Source: a virus
Length of the DNA: 47,120 nt
Direction: 5' to 3' (one strand)
IMG/VR virus record: IMGVR_UViG_3300042010_000067
Coordinates: 1-47,120 of that record
Shown: piece after piece, positions 20,248 to 46,944 of the stretch
Numbering within the stretch: position 1 is the first letter of the stretch
Layout of the letters: each line of letters opens with the position of its first letter
Translations under genes and position numbers: made by a program
Notes under the pieces: model-generated
What the model saw: the letters and a program-made list of their open reading frames with translations, nothing else
Told to the model about the DNA's origin: nothing
The model's database searches: none

Positions 20248-20310
20248 GTCCGCCACATCCGGGGTTGCTCCCGAGCGCCGTCTCCCAGCGGCCGATGTGG
20301 CGGACTTTTT
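20248..20310 (+). terminator. Terminator with 12-bp stem after capsid gene
   Basis: GTCCGCCACATC (20248-20259) pairs perfectly with GATGTGGCGGAC (20294-20305) and is followed by TTTTT (20306-20310). The 34-base loop could fold further. It lies between the capsid gene and a freestanding HNH gene, so that gene may be uncoupled from capsid expression. Confidence 0.75.
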
Positions 20311-20348
20311 CTATTTCTGGGAGCGCCAATCATGGGAGTGATTGCAAA

Positions 20349-20987
20349 ATGCCTCAAGACACACCCGAAAATCGCCGCGAATACCACAGAGCTTGGCGCC
20401 TACAAAATCCTGAAAAGGTGAAGGCCAACGCTGAGCGCTATCTTGAGAAGAATAAAGAGAAAGACGCCGAGCAGCGGAGAGTCCGCGCCAGGCGCCGCTA
20501 TGCGGAAAATCCAGAGAAATACAAAGCTATCAACAGAGAAAAATACCAAGCGAACCCCGAAGCGTATCAAGCTGCGTCTACTCGATGGAAAGAAGCCAAT
20601 GTCGACCAACAACTAGCTAAAAGAAAAGAGCAGTACGACCGTAGGAAACGCGAAGAGCGTGAGGTGTCTGCTTTGATTGGTGCGCGTAATCGAGCTAAGC
20701 AGAAAGGCTTAGAGTTCACTCTCACGAAGGAATGGGTAAAAAGCCGGGGCAGTAATTGTGAGTTGTCTGGGTTGCCCTTTCGCCCTGAATACGACGGCGT
20801 TCATGATAGAAACCCATTCGCGCCTTCTGTAGATCGAATAGATAGCAGCAAGGGGTACACCCCTGAAAACTCTAGGTTGATTTTCTCTTGCCTAAATATG
20901 GGTCTAGGCCAGTGGGGCTTGGAAGAGGTTGCCCCGATTTGGGCTGCTGTACTGGAGAAATTGGCTAAAACCGAAACCAGTGTGTAA
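20349..20987 (+). CDS. Freestanding HNH homing endonuclease
   Basis: A protein of 212 residues starting MPQDTPENRREYHRAW, with GGAG about 10 bases upstream. The first half holds repeats around NPEK (RLQNPEKVKA, AENPEKYKAI, QANPEAYQA), rich in Lys and Arg, as in DNA-binding arms of phage homing enzymes. The C-terminal half has CELSGLPF, then PFAPSVDRIDSSKGYTPEN and NMGLGQWGLEE, the GVE-type HNH pattern with conserved D, R, D and N. It sits between terminators and interrupts the capsid-to-portal order, so it is probably a mobile gene. Its target is unknown. Confidence 0.82.
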   Translation: MPQDTPENRREYHRAWRLQNPEKVKANAERYLEKNKEKDAEQRRVRARRRYAENPEKYKAINREKYQANPEAYQAASTRWKEANVDQQLAKRKEQYDRRKREEREVSALIGARNRAKQKGLEFTLTKEWVKSRGSNCELSGLPFRPEYDGVHDRNPFAPSVDRIDSSKGYTPENSRLIFSCLNMGLGQWGLEEVAPIWAAVLEKLAKTETSV

Positions 20988-21045: not shown

Positions 21046-21070
21046 CACCCTAAATTTGAGGGTTTTTCGC

Positions 21071-21361
21071 ATGAGCAAAGTCGAATTCAGCTATAGCCAA
21101 GCCCGCGGCGGTAAAACCGTACCGATGGCGAAGCGCTACGCTGAGACCCTGCGCAAGATGGGTTTTGGCACCTACCAGACCCGTATGCTTACCGCCGCAG
21201 AGCCAAAGGCTCAAGACGAACAGGAAGGCCCTCTAGTTTCTAAAGAGATCGCCGCCTTCGCGGCGGAGAACAATGTGGATCTGACCAAGGTTACCGGCAC
21301 CGGTAAAGACGGGCGCATCAAAAAATCCGATGTTGAAGCCTTTATCGCTGTGCAGGTGTAA
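21071..21361 (+). CDS. Small head-region protein with E3-binding-like domain
   Basis: A protein of 96 residues starting MSKVEFSYSQARGGKTV. Residues about 55-92 (VSKEIAAFAAENNVDLTKV, then TGTGKDGRIKKSDVEAFI) match the peripheral subunit-binding domain of dehydrogenase E2 proteins, a 35-residue three-helix unit. The N-terminal half (MAKRYAETLRKMGFGTY) is not recognised. It lies between capsid and portal genes and is separated from the portal start by 2 bases. It may be a capsid decoration, head-tail or internal protein that uses the domain for protein contacts. Confidence 0.7.
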   Translation: MSKVEFSYSQARGGKTVPMAKRYAETLRKMGFGTYQTRMLTAAEPKAQDEQEGPLVSKEIAAFAAENNVDLTKVTGTGKDGRIKKSDVEAFIAVQV

Positions 21362-23632: not shown

Positions 23633-24003
23633 TGTACGTCACCCTGGCGCGCGCTAAGCAGCACCTGAACATGGATCACGACGAAGACGACACCTTGATC
23701 GAAGTCTACGTCCAGGCGGCGTCTGGTGCGGTTAAGAACTATCTGAAAAGCGCTTCGCCATACGAGGTTGAGCGCGACAGCAACGACGATCCGATCCTCG
23801 ATAGTTCGGGCGACCCGGTGTACGTCGTCGACAGCTCGGGCGATAAGCTGATCAGTTACCCGGTGCAAGCCGCTGTGCTACTGATGGTTGGCTTCTTGTA
23901 CAAAGACCGCGACGAGAACTCGGATCAGGCATTTCAGGCCGGCTACTTGCCGAAGCCCGTGACGGCTTTGCTGTACCCACTTCGTAAACCGGCCCTCGCA
24001 TGA
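23629..24003 (+). CDS. Head-tail connector protein (gp6-like)
   Basis: A protein of 124 residues. MYVTLARAKQHLNMDHDEDDTLIEVYVQAA at the start and AAVLLMVGFLYKDRDE near the C-terminus are typical of the Phage_connect_1 / HK97 gp6 family, which forms a ring under the portal. An insert of Asp-rich sequence lies in the middle. Coupled to the preceding and following genes by ATGA. Confidence 0.88.
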   Translation: MMYVTLARAKQHLNMDHDEDDTLIEVYVQAASGAVKNYLKSASPYEVERDSNDDPILDSSGDPVYVVDSSGDKLISYPVQAAVLLMVGFLYKDRDENSDQAFQAGYLPKPVTALLYPLRKPALA

Positions 24004-24359
24004 GCCGCGCCGGCCAGTACCGCCATCGGGTGGATATCCAAGACTGGACCGAGGTCCGCGATCCTGAAACAGGCGGCTTTACCGAAGCTTGGGTAACGGT
24101 TTTCGCGAATGTTCCTGCGAGAATCGTCGACGCTAGCGGGCGAGAGTTCAAAGAGTCTGCTGCTACTCAGTCGGAGATTATCGGACGTATAGTTATCAGG
24201 GCGAGACCCGGTTTGAAAGCCAAACAGCGAGTTTTGCAGAAGGGTAAAGCCGGTGAAATTTTAGGAATTTACAACGCCCACGCCTGGCTGCGCGACCCCG
24301 ATAGCGGCCGTGATTATGTCAGCGCTCCCGTTTCACTCGGCGTGAACGATGGTCAATAA
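24000..24359 (+). CDS. Head closure protein (Phage_H_T_join / SPP1 gp16-like)
   Basis: A protein of 119 residues. AGQYRHRVDIQDWTEVRDPETGGFTEAWVTV and ARIVDASGREF match the head-tail joining family with its beta-barrel. It seals the filled head and offers the site for tail binding. It overlaps the next gene by 11 bases. Confidence 0.88.
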   Translation: MSRAGQYRHRVDIQDWTEVRDPETGGFTEAWVTVFANVPARIVDASGREFKESAATQSEIIGRIVIRARPGLKAKQRVLQKGKAGEILGIYNAHAWLRDPDSGRDYVSAPVSLGVNDGQ

Positions 24360-24921
24360 AACCTTCGTCTGCATCGCCTCCGGCCCGAGCCTCAACGCGC
24401 ACGACTGCGAACTGGTACGCGCCGCCGGCCTTCCCACAATCGCTGTGAACAACTCCTGGCAGCTAGCCCCGTGGTGCGATCACCTTTACGCAGGTGATCT
24501 CGCGTGGTGGGATGCTCACGTCTCTGAAGTTCCCGACGGCCCTAAGCGCTGGACGTGTACCCGCCAAGCGTCCGCAAAGCATGGGTTGAATTGGCACGAA
24601 GCTTACGGTGAATATAATTCTGGCTTGAGAGCGATAGAACTGGCCTTTCAGCTAGGAGCCGAACGCGTATTGCTTCTTGGGTATGACTGCACGGTGCAAG
24701 GCGGTACGCACTGGCACGGTGACCACAGAGACACGAAGAACCCTGATGAAGCGTTGTGCAGGAAGTGGAACCAGCAGCATTGCCGGCTAGCGCAGCGGGA
24801 ACGCGTAGTGAATTGCTCACGTGACACGGCACTGACAGCGTACCGTTTGGGGTATCTCGAAAAAGAGTTGCAAAAGGTTGTTGACACTTGTGATGCTCTC
24901 GACAATACTCAGGGCTCTTAA
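24349..24921 (+). CDS. DUF115/MptE-like protein in head-tail region
   Basis: A protein of 190 residues. CIASGPSLNAHDC at the N-terminus, AVNNSWQLAPWCDHLYAGD, then LGAERVLLLGYDC and HWHGDH fit a phage family related to DUF115/MptE, whose members act on pterin diphosphates or in sugar transfer (flagellin glycosylation factors). The glycine-rich SGPSL loop and the Asp/His motifs suggest a nucleotide-type ligand. It is not a virion joining protein by sequence, yet it is embedded among them. With the GT9-like and methyltransferase genes downstream it may modify a surface glycan, virion protein or DNA. Confidence 0.65.
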   Translation: MVNKTFVCIASGPSLNAHDCELVRAAGLPTIAVNNSWQLAPWCDHLYAGDLAWWDAHVSEVPDGPKRWTCTRQASAKHGLNWHEAYGEYNSGLRAIELAFQLGAERVLLLGYDCTVQGGTHWHGDHRDTKNPDEALCRKWNQQHCRLAQRERVVNCSRDTALTAYRLGYLEKELQKVVDTCDALDNTQGS

Positions 24922-24978
24922 GCAGAAAAGCATTTTGCCGATCAACACCGACTGAGGGATTTGCAGCCATGTTTGAAA

Positions 24979-25170
24979 ATGATGAGTACGAAGGGTTCTG
25001 ATCAACCAGCGCCAACCGATAAGTGGCCGCACATGCGGCAAGTTGCACCAGGCGTAGCGATTGAAGCAGTAGGCGTCGAAACCGTATACGGTGGAGCCGA
25101 AAGTCGGATAGTGGAGCGAAAGCTGCGAAGCGAGAACGACCAGTCGCTACAAGCCTGGTGCAATTGGTAG
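24979..25170 (+). CDS. Possible small protein, unknown
   Basis: An open frame of 63 residues (MMSTKGSDQPAPTDKW...) ends inside the tRNA-like structure at 25160. No ribosome binding site is evident before 24979; a GAGGG lies nearer an ATG at 24969, which leads to only ten codons. The stretch 24922-25159 has no better candidate, so this ORF is reported with caution. Confidence 0.3.
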   Translation: MMSTKGSDQPAPTDKWPHMRQVAPGVAIEAVGVETVYGGAESRIVERKLRSENDQSLQAWCNW

Positions 25171-25256
25171 CTCAGTGGGTAGAGTGCGCGGGCGCTGTTT
25201 TTACAGCGATTTACTTCCTGCGATGTCGGGTGTTCGAATCACTCACAGTTGCACCA
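25160..25256 (+). tRNA. tRNA-like structure with enlarged anticodon loop
   Basis: GCAATTG (25160-25166) pairs with CAGTTGC (25246-25252), followed by A and an encoded CCA. The D-arm is GCTC / AGTGGGTA / GAGT (25170-25185). The T-arm is GGGTG / TTCGAAT / CACTC (25228-25244). The anticodon stem CGCGG (25187-25191) pairs with CTGCG (25218-25222), but the loop is 26 bases rather than 7 and contains the hairpin CGCTG/CAGCG (25193-25208). One extra base lies on each side of the acceptor base. No amino acid can be assigned. It may be a tRNA with an insertion, a decayed tRNA, or a tRNA mimic. A terminator follows. Confidence 0.55.
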
Positions 25257-25282
25257 ACCTATTCCCGTCGTGCCCTCACTTT

Positions 25283-25309
25283 GCCCGCCCACACTGCGGG
25301 CTTCTTTTT
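25283..25309 (+). terminator. Terminator after tRNA-like structure
   Basis: GCCCGC and GCGGGC form a 6-bp stem around CCACACT, followed by TTCTTTTT. Confidence 0.75.
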
Positions 25310-25320
25310 GGAGAATGGAA

Positions 25321-25482
25321 ATGGACTACGAAGAGCTGCTGAAGAAATATATGCAGCATGTTGGTGATTGCGAAGGTGCAGTTTTTGTTGACCGTCTAAA
25401 CGCCGGCTGCGGCGCAGATGTAGACTTCTCGGATGAAGAGGTCGCAGAACTCGAAAGAATCCGCGATGAGCTTTTCCAATGA
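25321..25482 (+). CDS. Conserved small phage protein
   Basis: A protein of 53 residues (MDYEELLKKYMQHVGDCEG...). GGAG lies 8 bases before the ATG at 25321; the ATG at 25315 is too close to it. The start D(Y/F)xELLxxYxxHVxxCEG recurs in small proteins of many phages. The stop overlaps the GT9-like gene by ATGA. Function unknown. Confidence 0.7.
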   Translation: MDYEELLKKYMQHVGDCEGAVFVDRLNAGCGADVDFSDEEVAELERIRDELFQ

Positions 25483-26312
25483 TCATCCATGGAATGCGGG
25501 GCCTCGGAGACAACTTGTTCCAGCGACCTTTCATCAAAGCGCTACCAAAGCCCGTGTACCTCGACACACCCTGGCCGGAAATTTACCAAGACATTCCCGG
25601 CGTCCAGTTCATCCGACCACAAACCACGCTGCGCACTCAGGCGAAGAACATCGCGCGCCACGCTGATTGGATTATGCCACCCGGGCGACAACCGGCCCGC
25701 CACATTCGTTACGGCGTCGAGGGCATCATACCCGGCATGACAGCATGCTTTGGCGTAGCGCCGGCCGAGTTTGATCTACCCCCACTGCCTGAAATGGAAT
25801 TGTATTGCAAGTACGTCGTCGTTCGACCGGCGACCGTGCGTAGTGAGTGGCGAGCTGATACGCGCAATCCCGATCCGTATTACATCACCCTGGCAGCGAT
25901 GGAAGCGGGTTTGCGAGGATATCGAGTAATCAGCATTGCCGATTTGCAAGACGGTCAAGAGTGGGCGGTAGGGGATCTACCACCGTCGGATGTGCAATAT
26001 CACAAAGGTGAACTCCCGGTTGAACAACTCCTGTCCCTCGTCGCTAACGCCTCGGCGGTGATCGGGGGTATTGGCTGGCTGGTGCCGGCGGCGCTCGCTG
26101 CCAAGGTTCCGGCGTGGATTATCTGCGGCGGCCAAGGCGGTTATAATGCGCCGGAGCTGATCACGCCAAAAGGTCAAAGCAACATCACATTCGCGGTTCC
26201 TGACAACTTCTGTCGCTGCCGCCTCAAACAACACAACTGCGACAAAAGGATCTCAGATTATGATGCAAAGCTTACCGCATGGGCTGGAAGATGCCTTCCT
26301 GTGGTCTCCTGA
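25479..26312 (+). CDS. GT9-like glycosyltransferase (heptosyltransferase fold)
   Basis: A protein of 277 residues. MIIHGMRGLGDNLFQRPFI matches the N-terminal GxGD motif of GT-B family 9 enzymes, and ANASAVIGGIGWLVPAALAAKVPAWIICGG matches the C-terminal sugar-nucleotide site (a VG(V/I)DSG-like turn followed by an Ala-rich helix and Pro). It ends with two Cys motifs (FCRCRLKQHNC). GT9 enzymes transfer heptose or other sugars to LPS. Substrate and target here are unknown; it may change host surface sugars, decorate virion proteins, or act on hypermodified bases. It overlaps the methyltransferase gene by 53 bases. Confidence 0.7.
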   Translation: MIIHGMRGLGDNLFQRPFIKALPKPVYLDTPWPEIYQDIPGVQFIRPQTTLRTQAKNIARHADWIMPPGRQPARHIRYGVEGIIPGMTACFGVAPAEFDLPPLPEMELYCKYVVVRPATVRSEWRADTRNPDPYYITLAAMEAGLRGYRVISIADLQDGQEWAVGDLPPSDVQYHKGELPVEQLLSLVANASAVIGGIGWLVPAALAAKVPAWIICGGQGGYNAPELITPKGQSNITFAVPDNFCRCRLKQHNCDKRISDYDAKLTAWAGRCLPVVS

Positions 26313-26880
26313 AAAGGGGCAAGGTTTTCACTCTCGCCCGGCCATGCTCTATGGAGGCGAATATTTCGCCAACTACCAAAAGCTTGACGCCACCAAAATG
26401 GGCGGCCTGCTGACCAAAGCGCGCGTCGACCTGGTTAAGAAATACCTGAACCCTGCTGAGGTCGTAGATATAGGCATCGGTGGTGGGCGCTTCGTGCAGG
26501 AATCGCAGGGCATGGGTTACGACGTTTGTCCGGACGCCGTGAAGTGGTTGCAGAGCACTTACGCTTACCGCGATCCGTACGGCAGCGAAGAAGTCCGTGC
26601 GATCACCTGTTGGGATAGCCTTGAGCACATCCCGGAGCCCGAAAAGCTTCTCGAGCGCGTAAAGGAATGGCTGTTCGTCTCGATCCCGATCTGTGAGACG
26701 GCCAGTGAGTGGATCGATTCCAAGCACATGAAGCCCGGCGAGCATATCCATTACTTCAGCTTGCAAGGCTTTATCCGCTGGTGCGGCGAACAAGGTTTCG
26801 AGTGCCAGGAAGTGAACTGGGCGGAAACCGAACTGGGTCGAGAAGGAATCGCATCGTTTGCATTCCGGCGGGTGGCGTAG
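26260..26880 (+). CDS. SAM-dependent methyltransferase
   Basis: A protein of 206 residues. VVDIGIGGGRFV (about residues 68-79) is the glycine-rich SAM motif I, and AITCWDSLEHIPEPEKLLERV the usual post-motif II segment of Methyltransf_23-type enzymes. HMKPGEHIHYFSLQGFIRW is typical of those acting on sugars or small molecules. No DNA methylase catalytic motif (such as NPPY or DPPY) is present. AGGA is 9 bases before the ATG, and a second ATG follows at once. It overlaps the GT9-like gene, so the two are probably made together. Confidence 0.75.
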   Translation: MMQSLPHGLEDAFLWSPEKGQGFHSRPAMLYGGEYFANYQKLDATKMGGLLTKARVDLVKKYLNPAEVVDIGIGGGRFVQESQGMGYDVCPDAVKWLQSTYAYRDPYGSEEVRAITCWDSLEHIPEPEKLLERVKEWLFVSIPICETASEWIDSKHMKPGEHIHYFSLQGFIRWCGEQGFECQEVNWAETELGREGIASFAFRRVA

Positions 26881-27020: not shown

Positions 27021-27464
27021 ATGGCCGACTGGATTACCTATAAGCTCAAAGGTGTTGACAAGCTGTCAGCGGCCTTCAAAAAGCTGCCCCAGGAACTCCA
27101 GCGGCAGATTGTCGTGCCCGCCGCGAAAGATGCTATGCAGATCGTTCTGCAAGACGCCATTGCGCGCGCGCAACGAATAGATGACCCTTCGACGATCCCT
27201 GACATTTCGAAGAACATCGCCTTGATCGAAGACACAAAGTATTTCGAGGAGACCGGTTCGACCAAGGTTTCCGTGGGCGTGCGTAAGACACGGCGGGGTC
27301 AGCGTGGGGGCAATACCTATTACTGGTGGTGGGTGACCCTGGGTAATTCGCGTATGCGCGCGCAGCCTTTCATGCAAAATGCGTTAAGCCAAAACCAACA
27401 GGCCGTATTTCAGGAATTCCTCAGCTCGGCCAAATTTGAACTACTTCGCCTGGACCTAAGCTAA
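27021..27464 (+). CDS. HK97 gp10-like neck/tail completion protein
   Basis: A protein of 147 residues. GVDKLSAAFKKLPQELQRQIV at the start and RMRAQPFMQNALSQNQQAVFQEF at the end are typical of the HK97 gp10 family, which helps to complete the tail at the head-proximal end. The ribosome binding site is GAGGGCAAACC-ATG. The stop shares a base with the HNH gene start. Confidence 0.87.
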   Translation: MADWITYKLKGVDKLSAAFKKLPQELQRQIVVPAAKDAMQIVLQDAIARAQRIDDPSTIPDISKNIALIEDTKYFEETGSTKVSVGVRKTRRGQRGGNTYYWWWVTLGNSRMRAQPFMQNALSQNQQAVFQEFLSSAKFELLRLDLS

Positions 27465-28138
27465 TGGAAGTCCGTATCTGTAAAGCCTGCGGGATTGAAA
27501 AGTCTTTAGGAGAGTTCCATAAGGAAAAAACCTGCGTAGGCGGTCGGCAAACACAATGCAAAACCTGTTTAAACGCTAGAAGAAAACTAAAATATTATCA
27601 AAATCACGCCCACGAAAAAGCCTGCGACGCTGCCTATCGGGCGGCTAATCCCGAGAAAATAAAAGAGCAGAGCCGCGCTTGGAACTCTCGGAATAAAGAA
27701 CACAGGAGATCTTACAAAGAAGCGAACAAAGAAAAGATCGCCGCTAAGAACGCTGAATATTTTCAGCGCGTAAAAGAAAGACGCGCTGAGTTAGCCCGGG
27801 AAAAATATCGTAACGACCCTTTGCACGCCATGAAATGCCGCTTACGATTGCGTACTCGGCTAGCAATAAAAGCTAAGGGCTTTACGAAGAAGTCCCGCAT
27901 ACGGCAGATACTCGGTTGCGACGATATCACTCTGAAAAGTCATATACAGGCACTTTTCACCGAAGGCATGACTTGGGAGAACCGAGGAGAGTGGCACTTG
28001 GATCATAAAACTCCGTTAGCTGCGGCCAATAATGAAGAGGAATTGCTTGCGCTCTGCCACTATAAAAATTTGCAGCCATTGTGGGCCGCTGATAATTTCG
28101 CTAAAGGTGGGCGCATAGCCCAGGGGGAACCCGCATAA
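27464..28138 (+). CDS. HNH endonuclease inserted between tail completion genes
   Basis: A protein of 224 residues. The N-terminus has CKACG and CKTC pairs (a zinc ribbon), a long charged middle with repeats around NPEK and NKEK, and a C-terminal HNH: GEWHLDHKTPLAAA, then HYKNLQPLWAADNFAKGG with the conserved H-D-H, N and N. This type is common among freestanding phage homing endonucleases. Both junctions are one-base overlaps (TAATG), so it is inserted without disturbing the neighbours. More AT-rich, Lys-rich coding than its neighbours suggests recent transfer. Confidence 0.85.
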   Translation: MEVRICKACGIEKSLGEFHKEKTCVGGRQTQCKTCLNARRKLKYYQNHAHEKACDAAYRAANPEKIKEQSRAWNSRNKEHRRSYKEANKEKIAAKNAEYFQRVKERRAELAREKYRNDPLHAMKCRLRLRTRLAIKAKGFTKKSRIRQILGCDDITLKSHIQALFTEGMTWENRGEWHLDHKTPLAAANNEEELLALCHYKNLQPLWAADNFAKGGRIAQGEPA

Positions 28139-44954: not shown

Positions 44955-45145
44955 CCTTTCCGGTAGCGATACGCTTCGAAGCCGGCGGCGGCGAGCGGTA
45001 AGCCTTCTGTCCAGTCTTCACCTTGGGCCATGAGGGCTGAGAGGATGTGGTGTGAAAAAGCAGGATCATCAGGAGCTTCGCAGATCACTTCGTCGTGTAC
45101 GGTTACGACGATCTCCAGGCCTGATTCAAACTCTACGGGCGCCAT
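44951..45145 (-). CDS. DNA polymerase I-like, C-terminal piece with motif C
   Basis: A protein of 64 residues starting [25 protein letters not shown] (H17-D18-E19) is motif C of family A polymerases, with a catalytic Asp that binds metal; the rest (SALMAQGEDWTEGLPLAAAGFEAYRY) is the normal C-terminus. It lies in the -1 frame relative to the middle part and overlaps it by 13 bases. CGAGGAT with GAGG 8 bases before the ATG could serve as a ribosome binding site. Either it is made as a separate small subunit, or ribosomal frameshifting or a sequencing error joins it to the middle part. Confidence 0.8.
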   Translation of the reverse strand: MAPVEFESGLEIVVTVHDEVICEAPDDPAFSHHILSALMAQGEDWTEGLPLAAAGFEAYRYRKG

Positions 45146-46944
45146 GCTTCGATCCTCGGCATTGAGTGGGCGAGTACATCCCTCGCAACTGCTTGTGTAG
45201 TGTTTTCCGCCAATTTCCCAGAATATGTGCGCAATCTTTCCCATTTTCGGGAATATTGATTAATACCCATAAACGTGATTTGCCCATCGTCCTCAACGCG
45301 AGGCGACGGATAGCAGAGGTAACGCCCGCTCGGCAACATGACGCGAAGCCAAGCACCGTCGCGGCGTACCTTATGCATCCGACAGGTCAACGTCTGCCCC
45401 GGATTGTTGATCGCGTTTCTGCAGGCGTTCTCCAGCTCTTTCCAGTAGCTAGCCACGTTAGGGTGCGCCTCCCGCCACAGGCGCTTGAAGCTATCGCACA
45501 CGATGAACGCCTGATCGCTAAGACCGTACTGGCTCTTACCCTGGCCGAGCTGCCACTCAAGGAAGCCGGCCGCTTCATCAAGCGTCGATTTGGGAATCGT
45601 GCTAACCGCCTTCTCGGCCATTGCTTCCAAGTCGATGTTGAATGCCAGCGAAAAGGTAATAAAGGCACCTACGCCGCCGGCATATCCGCAATTGTGAGCG
45701 ATCAGCGGGCCGCGGTCAGAGAGAATCGAGAAGCAGTTCCTCGGCCCGCAGAAGGCGATGTCGTAAGTCTCGATTTTCAGCTTCGAGTCGCATGATGGTT
45801 TTCTGCATGGTTCCGATTTTTCTTCGGTTCTGTGCGTTTTCGGTTCGAGTGATGAACCGCAGGTTGCCTGGCTCGTACCCTTTGTTAACGTCTTCTCGAT
45901 CCAGTTCGTAAGACGCGATATCCCAGTTTTCCAGGGTGACGATGTAGGCGAGGAAAGCTCGCCGGTCTTCACGCCAAGGTCCATGGACGTGAATGCCTCG
46001 ACCCCCGTAGTTTTTGTACCCGCCGTCCTTTGGGTTGTGGCAACGATTAATGCAGGCGGATATACGGCCCAACAAGCGGCGCCGATGATCGTCTGAAGGC
46101 ACGATGTCAGCGTATGCCCAGTAGTTTTTACGCCAGTGGCCCGCTTTCTTTTTGGCGCAGGAATTACACCGGGTCGATTTCCCTTTACGCAAGTTGTAGT
46201 CGTAAACGTGATGAGGTTCCGCCCCGCATGAGCACTGGACGGTAAGAATCCCCGACGGACCTCCGGCCGGCCCGAGGTTGTGTCCGACAACGGTAAGCTC
46301 TTCGAACCGGTCTCCAATGCTTGGCAAAGGTATTTTTCGTTTGAAACGAGTTCCGCGACCGGCTTCCATGTTTGCCGGGTTTTGATTAAATGATCCGGCG
46401 TTGCCAGAATGCCGGCGACACGTACAACCGGCTTCACACCTCTCCGAACCAAACCCTGATGTCTTACCCACTCTTCACCATCCCATAACTGAACGTCTGT
46501 AGTTACATCCCGAATGGCAATGTATCCTTTCTCCTTCGTCAGTACTAGGGTGTCGCCGCCCAGGCAAGCCAGTTCCATGGTCTTGCCGATCTGCCGCATC
46601 ATGCCGTCAACTTCATCGACGCTTACGCCGAACGCCTTCGCGTAGGCGAGCTTGTACAGGTCAGAGCCAAGCGTCACCGGATCACCCTTAGCGTTAAGCT
46701 CTACAGGAACAGGCGTACCGGCTAAGGCAGCGGCTCGCAGCTCGTCTCCGCTATACCAGCGTCCGTCTAGTCCCATCTGCGTGTCATACTCACGGAACGC
46801 CTGGAGCTTCCATTCTTCGCCGGCTAACCACGCTAGCACTCGGCCCTCAATATTTGACAAATCTGCTATAACCAGTTTCTTTTTAGAAGGTGCGGTTATA
46901 AGACCGCGAACCGCGCTGCTGCACGCTTCCATCACCGTTGTCAT
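45133..46944 (-). CDS. DNA polymerase I-like, palm and fingers part, with intein
   Basis: A protein of 603 residues before splicing and 311 after. Motif A is [12 protein letters not shown] (about 24-35); motif [21 protein letters not shown], is split by an intein (residues 127-418) between Ala126 and Cys419. The thumb and later parts run to [20 protein letters not shown], then the frame stops at WRP. Motif C lies in the next frame. The start ATGA overlaps the stop of the exonuclease part, with GGAAG 7 bases upstream. After splicing the conserved O-helix is restored exactly. Confidence 0.9.
45691..46566 (-). other. Intein in polymerase motif B
   Basis: The intein spans 292 residues. It starts with Cys1 in [14 protein letters not shown] (block A). 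Block B is [13 protein letters not shown], with the conserved T-x-x-H. Blocks F and G read [16 protein letters not shown], then RGPLIAHN, ending with His-Asn before Cys+1 of the C-extein. All residues needed for class 1 splicing (Cys1, block B Thr and His, penultimate His, Asn, Cys+1) are present. The middle (about residues 205-390) has no LAGLIDADG or HNH pattern in this frame and is rich in Thr, Ser and Lys. It is the shadow of the endonuclease frame, kept free of stops. Confidence 0.92.
45716..46471 (-). CDS. HNH homing endonuclease nested out of frame in the intein gene
   Basis: A frame of 251 residues from GTG at 46471, offset -1 relative to the intein frame. The conserved part begins at about residue 43 ([16 protein letters not shown]), so an ATG at 46369 giving 217 residues may be the true start; neither has a strong ribosome binding site. 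The order is: a strand region, then a zinc ribbon (VQCSCG and CNSC), then the HNH domain: [32 protein letters not shown], and [19 protein letters not shown] with TENAQNRRK. This is the I-HmuI-like HNH pattern of phage homing enzymes. A C-terminal helix with heptads follows. It probably drives homing of the intein or its own gene into intein-free polymerase genes. Confidence 0.87.
   Translation of the reverse strand: MGKTSGFGSERCEAGCTCRRHSGNAGSFNQNPANMEAGRGTRFKRKIPLPSIGDRFEELTVVGHNLGPAGGPSGILTVQCSCGAEPHHVYDYNLRKGKSTRCNSCAKKKAGHWRKNYWAYADIVPSDDHRRRLLGRISACINRCHNPKDGGYKNYGGRGIHVHGPWREDRRAFLAYIVTLENWDIASYELDREDVNKGYEPGNLRFITRTENAQNRRKIGTMQKTIMRLEAENRDLRHRLLRAEELLLDSL

Follow-up and report, generated by a model that had tools for sequence, protein, structure and literature searches.

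Three genes of sugar-modifying type separate two head-tail joining genes in the virus record IMGVR_UViG_3300042010_000067, and the question is what such a cassette does at that place. The window analysed here is the whole IMG/VR record (47,120 bases). The cassette (24349-26880) encodes a DUF115/MptE-like protein, a GT9-like glycosyltransferase and an S-adenosylmethionine (SAM) methyltransferase, and lies between the head closure gene Hc1 and the HK97-gp10-like gene. Its coordinates and order, first given in a reading made without database searches (the sequence-only reading), were confirmed by Pfam and PHROG profiles. The Hc1-gp10 interval proved to be a swappable slot. Its probable use is to place modified sugars on the phage particle itself or on the surface of the host. 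The reading of the cassette that we prefer, with about an even chance, is that it serves to attach glycans to virion proteins late in infection.

Recurrence of the three genes

By tblastn, 29 phage records matched the GT9-like protein and 32 the methyltransferase. In Pseudomonas phage PAJU2 the trio has the neighbours that it has in the window, and all three families are also present in D3, Psp6, Enterobacter phage Mulvp2 and the jumbo Klebsiella phage Eowyn. A scan of IMG/VR returned 401 viral stretches encoding GT9-like relatives; 80 of these, plus the named phages, were kept for the co-occurrence counts, with some overlap of IMG/VR loci between scans and a simple non-redundancy filter. When the GT9-like proteins of the cyanophage and of Mulvp2 were each used as a single query against viral sequences, no matches were returned. 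The methyltransferase gene followed the GT9-like gene in all loci (85/85), overlapping it by 50 nucleotides (nt) in 41 and by 53 nt in 34, and the DUF115 gene lay upstream in 75 of the 76 loci with enough flanking sequence, the exception being a cyanophage. In two Bordetella prophages the DUF115 and GT9-like domains form one open reading frame (ORF). The median ratios of non-synonymous to synonymous substitution rates (dN/dS) were 0.18, 0.14 and 0.11 for the DUF115, GT9-like and methyltransferase genes, and 0.08-0.11 for the flanking virion genes. The recurrence of the trio on unrelated backbones, with purifying selection acting on it, shows that its assembly is not due to chance. Distance correlations did not set the trio apart from the flanking genes, so that co-evolution beyond linkage is unsupported by that test.

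In most relatives the cassette genes lie among late virion genes. The trio of the Mixta and Buttiauxella prophages is found between lysis and terminase genes, and in the cyanophage a divergent homologous pair adjoins a gp14 neck gene. The sequence-only reading knew of no described pathway for this exact set. This holds for the function, but the genes as a set have public entries (PAJU2, D3 and Eowyn among them) and are represented in PHROGs. Literature searches on phage DUF115 or GT9 function found nothing.

Contents of the Hc1-gp10 interval

The Hc1-gp10 content was read in 57 non-redundant loci, sampled through relatives of two portals, that of the window and a more distant one. DUF115 was present in every filled slot (35/35) and in none of the empty ones (0/22). 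The earlier statement that Hc1 and the gp10-like gene usually adjoin was borne out, the two overlapping or lying at most 3 nt apart in 13 of the 22 empty loci, that is 13 of the 57 relatives; in several other empty loci gp10 escaped recognition, and the next gene served as the end point of the distance. A survey of the same position in other phages, which the earlier reading had named as a check, found the arrangement of the window identical in PAJU2, and DUF115 with the GT9-methyltransferase pair in 22 of the 57 portal relatives. The remaining filled slots contained other sets (n = 12) or DUF115 alone (n = 1, L211).

Methyltransferases of other types follow DUF115 in loci L173, L140, L165 and L161, and two relatives of P1 PmgQ (up to 36% identity) stand behind it in L138 (10645-12431). 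The slot of L223 encodes a 2-oxoglutarate (2OG)-Fe(II) oxygenase over the cut-off (E = 5.5e-19), some alternative slot proteins display weak GT8 similarity, and the partial contig L170, beyond the 57 loci, has a gene for a divergent GT9-like protein, also with CxCx4HxC, and behind it one for a polysaccharide pyruvyltransferase (E = 3e-12). We classed the slots by hidden Markov model and BLAST matches, most alternative genes having no Pfam name. A rapidly built portal tree requires at least 12 changes of slot content, several branches being long and the exact count uncertain; the slot type of the window forms one clade, while types B and C recur. Because the alternative contents are of glycan type, the theme of the slot is taken to be glycan modification and not a set of three random morons. 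This replacement by other glycan-type enzymes, together with the predicted fold, the co-inheritance and the DUF115-GT9 fusion, supports the joint sugar-modifying function first proposed for the three genes.

A different account would place the DUF115 protein in the virion as a minor constituent and treat the GT9-like and methyltransferase genes as independent cargo at a recombination hot spot. It draws on the spacer between the DUF115 and GT9-like genes, which gathers tRNAs and HNH genes, on the solitary DUF115 of L211, and on the PAJU2 record, where the DUF115 protein ORF010 is labelled 'structural protein', a label given elsewhere in the stretch examined only to the capsid and to ORF015 at the tail-tube position. 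The near-total co-occurrence of the three genes, the fusion, the glycan-type theme of the alternative contents and the conservation of an enzyme-like residue set in DUF115 all argue the other way, and we regard this account as distinctly improbable.

The GT9-like protein

By themselves Pfam and NCBIfam offered no name for the GT9-like protein. The Pfam GT9 model (PF01075, gathering score 22) matched neither the window protein nor any of 42 aligned relatives, the Eowyn homologue reached 12.9 bits, below that score, and the sole NCBIfam match was a non-significant one to the Aah/TibC model TIGR04414 (12.8 bits, E = 0.042, cut-off 200). Sequence-profile searches of the PDB were also weak, and the fold search alone was decisive. 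With the AlphaFold2 model (predicted local distance difference test, pLDDT, 92.6) the best PDB match was the protein heptosyltransferase TibC, 21 chains of which headed the search (E = 1.7e-9 to 1.4e-7), followed by the lipopolysaccharide (LPS) heptosyltransferases WaaF (5e-6) and WaaC (6e-6).

Invariant residues of the family were G8-x-G10-D11, R116, R121, E123-W124, R129, E161-W162 and C245-x-C247-x4-H252-x-C254, and the G-x-G-D start would supply the catalytic Asp. D11 and R129 stand at plausible places relative to TibC Asp110 and the donor residues (Arg286, Trp305, Lys230), as compared by sequence. The CxCx4HxC motif, with three Cys and one His, was invariant in 14 of 14 homologues and is placed 28-37 residues past the donor-site glycines; the four-Cys iron finger of TibC lies 20-51 residues past the aligned glycine, in the same region of the C-lobe. 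The N-lobe of the model contains four strands.

The main rival of virion decoration is late modification of LPS or another host surface glycan, which would keep progeny from adsorbing to debris or superinfecting phages from entering. GT9 is the family of the LPS heptosyltransferases, and WaaC and WaaF come next after TibC in the fold search; TibC is the better match. P. aeruginosa is host to several carriers, and LPS is often used by its phages; pyruvyltransferases have polysaccharides as their usual substrate. The position of the trio in the Mixta and Buttiauxella prophages agrees with a surface role; in most carriers, however, the genes are inside the head-tail block. Membrane-embedded flippases or acetylases were not seen among the slot genes, unlike in classic O-antigen conversion, and no segment of the three cassette proteins is as hydrophobic as a typical membrane helix (maximum KD19 1.84, inside the GT-B core). 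The divergent homologous pair in the cyanophage is a further point against this rival, the cyanophage host not being known to have typical heptose LPS. We consider late surface modification unlikely on this evidence, although it outranks the other alternatives.

The DUF115 protein and the methyltransferase

The DUF115 protein belongs to the MptE-like/DUF115 superfamily. It scored 21.6 bits (E = 2e-4) against PF01973 (MptE-like), below the gathering score of 34.6; its Eowyn relative scored 30.1 bits, and PF01973 was matched in 27 of 34 members. Residues D50, W53-W54, S91-G92, D113, H121 and N155 were invariant. Among viral models the AlphaFold2 model (pLDDT 90) matched mainly its own superfamily. 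Matches to the GT42 sialyltransferase CstII were weak and non-significant (E = 0.7-1.3), and neither CstI nor CstII was among the PDB fold matches listed for the model.

The methyltransferase scored 46 bits against Methyltransf_23, over the gathering score of 27, and from its profile match is an ordinary class I enzyme. The families first guessed for the three proteins are in line with fold and co-inheritance. Modification of phage DNA or RNA, by base glycosylation or methylation against restriction, had been implied earlier by the proposal of a nucleoside analysis, and it could be entertained since glycosyltransferases acting on DNA are known from phages and the cassette includes a methyltransferase. 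Methyltransf_23 is, however, not a DNA methyltransferase family, the fold of the glycosyltransferase is of GT9/TibC and not of T4-type DNA glucosyltransferase, a thymidylate-synthase-type hydroxymethylase was not found in the record, and the genes hold a late expression position and not one with the replication genes. Such a role is therefore highly improbable.

Proposed function

What follows on donor, acceptor, sequence of reactions and advantage to the phage is inferred. The cassette would be a late-expressed glycan-modification set in a swappable head-tail slot. Its GT9-like protein, a putative minimal TibC-like GT-B enzyme with a metal-knuckle motif, would move a sugar from a host nucleotide-sugar to an acceptor. 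In the same pathway the DUF115 protein, of the MptE-like/GT42-like superfamily, would probably be a second nucleotide-sugar-using transferase, the two building a short glycan from host nucleotide-sugars that the methyltransferase may cap or diversify. One or more virion proteins of the capsid, neck or tail would be the likeliest acceptor and decorated particles the result, and a swap of the cassette would change the decoration. A virion protein is favoured by the nearest fold, which is that of an enzyme glycosylating proteins, by the usual head-tail position, by the PAJU2 ORF010 label and by the actinobacteriophage precedent (PMC11600133).

Several observations weigh against decoration of the virion. 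In Eowyn the trio is a separate operon away from recognised virion genes, the PAJU2 label of ORF010 is known as a record label alone, and the PDB fold search with the DUF115 model had no significant match. The GT9-like protein (277 amino acids, aa) starts directly with the catalytic domain and has no counterpart of the N-terminal beta-barrel of TibC (residues 1-97), deletion of which abolishes TibC activity (PMC4358343). TibC Arg286 and Trp305, the adenine- and sugar-contacting donor residues (PMC4358343), align with L184 and P203 in a by-eye reading of a weak sequence-profile alignment; as both appear to have been lost, a donor other than ADP-heptose is possible. In the laboratory P1 can do without pmgO and pmgQ (PMC10695390), which fits a decoration useful outside it. 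An experiment on the acceptor was not found in the literature searched, and on sequence alone the acceptor may be a virion protein or LPS.

More broadly, and more tentatively than virion decoration itself, the slot may be a dedicated virion-glycosylation island of tailed phages that infect Gram-negative bacteria. A constant DUF115 would then be combined with interchangeable transferase, methyltransferase, pyruvyltransferase and oxygenase sets to give a serotype-like diversity of particles, with P1 pmgO-pmgQ included. To our knowledge, phage-encoded virion glycosylation is established mainly for actinobacteriophages. If the slot has this role in phages of Gram-negative hosts, particle decoration would be shown to be swapped as a module, and the slot hypothesis is directly testable in laboratory phages.

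Layout of the cassette and the record

The features of the cassette are given in Table 1. The PHROG profile matches were full-length for all three proteins. The Hc1 and DUF115 genes overlap by 11 nt and the GT9-like and methyltransferase genes by 53 nt. The trio is not tightly packed throughout, because DUF115 and the GT9-like gene are separated by a spacer of 557 bp (24922-25478) holding a tRNA-like element, a hairpin and an ORF; terminator-like sites of the kind scanned for were no more frequent than in shuffles. The small ORF is shared with L028, L029, L030 and L036. GC content gave no sign of recent import.

Table 1. Features of the cassette and its borders in the window, and the fused genes of two relatives.
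Feature	Position	Strand	Evidence or remark
Head closure Hc1, left slot border	24000..24359	+	Phage_HCP E 7.6e-18; phrog_25
DUF115/MptE-like protein, first gene of every filled slot	24349..24921	+	phrog_4603 E 1.3e-51
Degenerate tRNA-Gln-like element	25160..25256	+	ARAGORN; no Rfam match in window
Terminator-like hairpin	25283..25310	+	consensus scan
55-aa ORF directly 5' of GT9-like gene	25315..25482	+	phrog_21984 E 6.9e-17
GT9-like GT-B glycosyltransferase	25479..26312	+	phrog_6804 E 1.7e-120; no Pfam match
Class I SAM methyltransferase	26260..26880	+	Methyltransf_23 E 6.3e-12; phrog_6564 E 5.1e-92
HK97-gp10-like tail completion gene, right slot border	27021..27464	+	PF04883 HK97-gp10_like; phrog_5
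DUF115-GT9 fusion	L093:7545-8966 (473 aa), L094:7233-8948 (571 aa)		Bordetella prophages

The DUF115-GT9 spacer is a tRNA hot spot in relatives (L012, L014, L018, L023, L026, L028, L029, L036, L037). Trp is the commonest tRNA there, with Gln, Gly, Asp, Ser and Met also found; real tRNAs, Rfam-confirmed in four loci, are present in L012, L028, L036 and L018, and the window spacer has a degenerate remnant only. HNH genes similar to those of the window lie inside the slot in L096, L100, L103, L106, L131 and L135; the two of the window, of endonuclease VII/HNH type, are among the structural genes (20265-20987 and 27464-28138).

The structural block runs terminase, capsid fused to protease, portal, Ad1, Hc1, gp10-like gene, tail terminator, tail tube, chaperone and tape measure, and by profile matches and record comparison PAJU2 has the same order. 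The window differs from PAJU2 in its replication genes, among which are those for a family A DNA polymerase, a primase and a helicase of its own, and a tyrosine integrase was not found in the record; the likeness is therefore limited to the structural block, and a temperate lambdoid identity of the phage is unsupported. The Ad1-Hc1 interval is a second variable spot, where close relatives encode an uncharacterised protein of about 217 aa (L111:10582-11235, L130:6521-7180) that is not in the window. In the capsid-portal interval, a small protein (21056-21361) is the probable carrier of the E3_binding domain found among the window proteins. The DNA polymerase gene is split over both record ends (45136-46944 and 5-1021, both on the minus strand) and its larger part includes an endonuclease-like stretch (phrog_93, residues 147-454), which suggests an intein or homing insertion in a circularly permuted record.

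Comparison with known systems

The closest systems are those of D3 (orf7, orf12, orf13) and PAJU2 (ORF010-012), with the same three families and a GT9-methyltransferase overlap of 50 nt. In PAJU2 position and order are identical to the window and the proteins are about 55-61% identical, whereas in D3 DUF115 is located upstream of Ad1. Both differ from the window in having no tRNA-like element or small ORF in between, and their function is unannotated.

TibC, an iron-containing heptosyltransferase glycosylating autotransporter adhesins, resembles the GT9-like protein as its best fold match, in the four-stranded N-lobe sheet, in the metal-type motif of the C-lobe and in a likely catalytic Asp past a glycine-rich start (PMC4358343). 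The phage protein differs in having no N-terminal barrel, CxCx4HxC in place of four Cys, and apparently neither Arg286 nor Trp305; with a TIGR04414 score below the cut-off as well, membership of the TibC family was rejected.

In actinobacteriophages (cluster O mycobacteriophages; Freeman et al. 2023, cited in PMC11600133), glycosyltransferases encoded beside an O-methyltransferase are reported to modify the capsid and tail tube. The likeness, drawn from this description, is that of glycosyltransferases beside an O-methyltransferase in a tailed phage; DUF115, a fixed head-tail slot and exchange are not mentioned in the description. The GT42 enzymes CstI/CstII and the Maf/DUF115 flagellin transferases resemble the DUF115 protein in that its GPSL and NSG..A..LG..L.G.D signatures align with CstII, and the PHROG name is 'alpha-2,3-sialyltransferase'; they differ in that the CstII match was not significant, no significant PDB fold was obtained and the phage protein is smaller. 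O-antigen conversion cassettes encode a membrane flippase, bactoprenol transferase or acetylase, none of which is among the three proteins or was recognised in other slot contents.

Finally, in the pmgO-pmgP-ppp-pmgQ genes of P1, PmgO is related to the DUF115 protein (39.8% over 86%) and PmgP matches the same Pfam family. P1 differs from the window in having no GT9-like/methyltransferase pair and in carrying the pmg genes in a separate late region. The PmgQ-type transferases behind DUF115 in L138 link these unexplained genes to the slot, and virion decoration, if true, would provide a function for P1 pmgO and pmgQ as for D3 orf7, orf12 and orf13.

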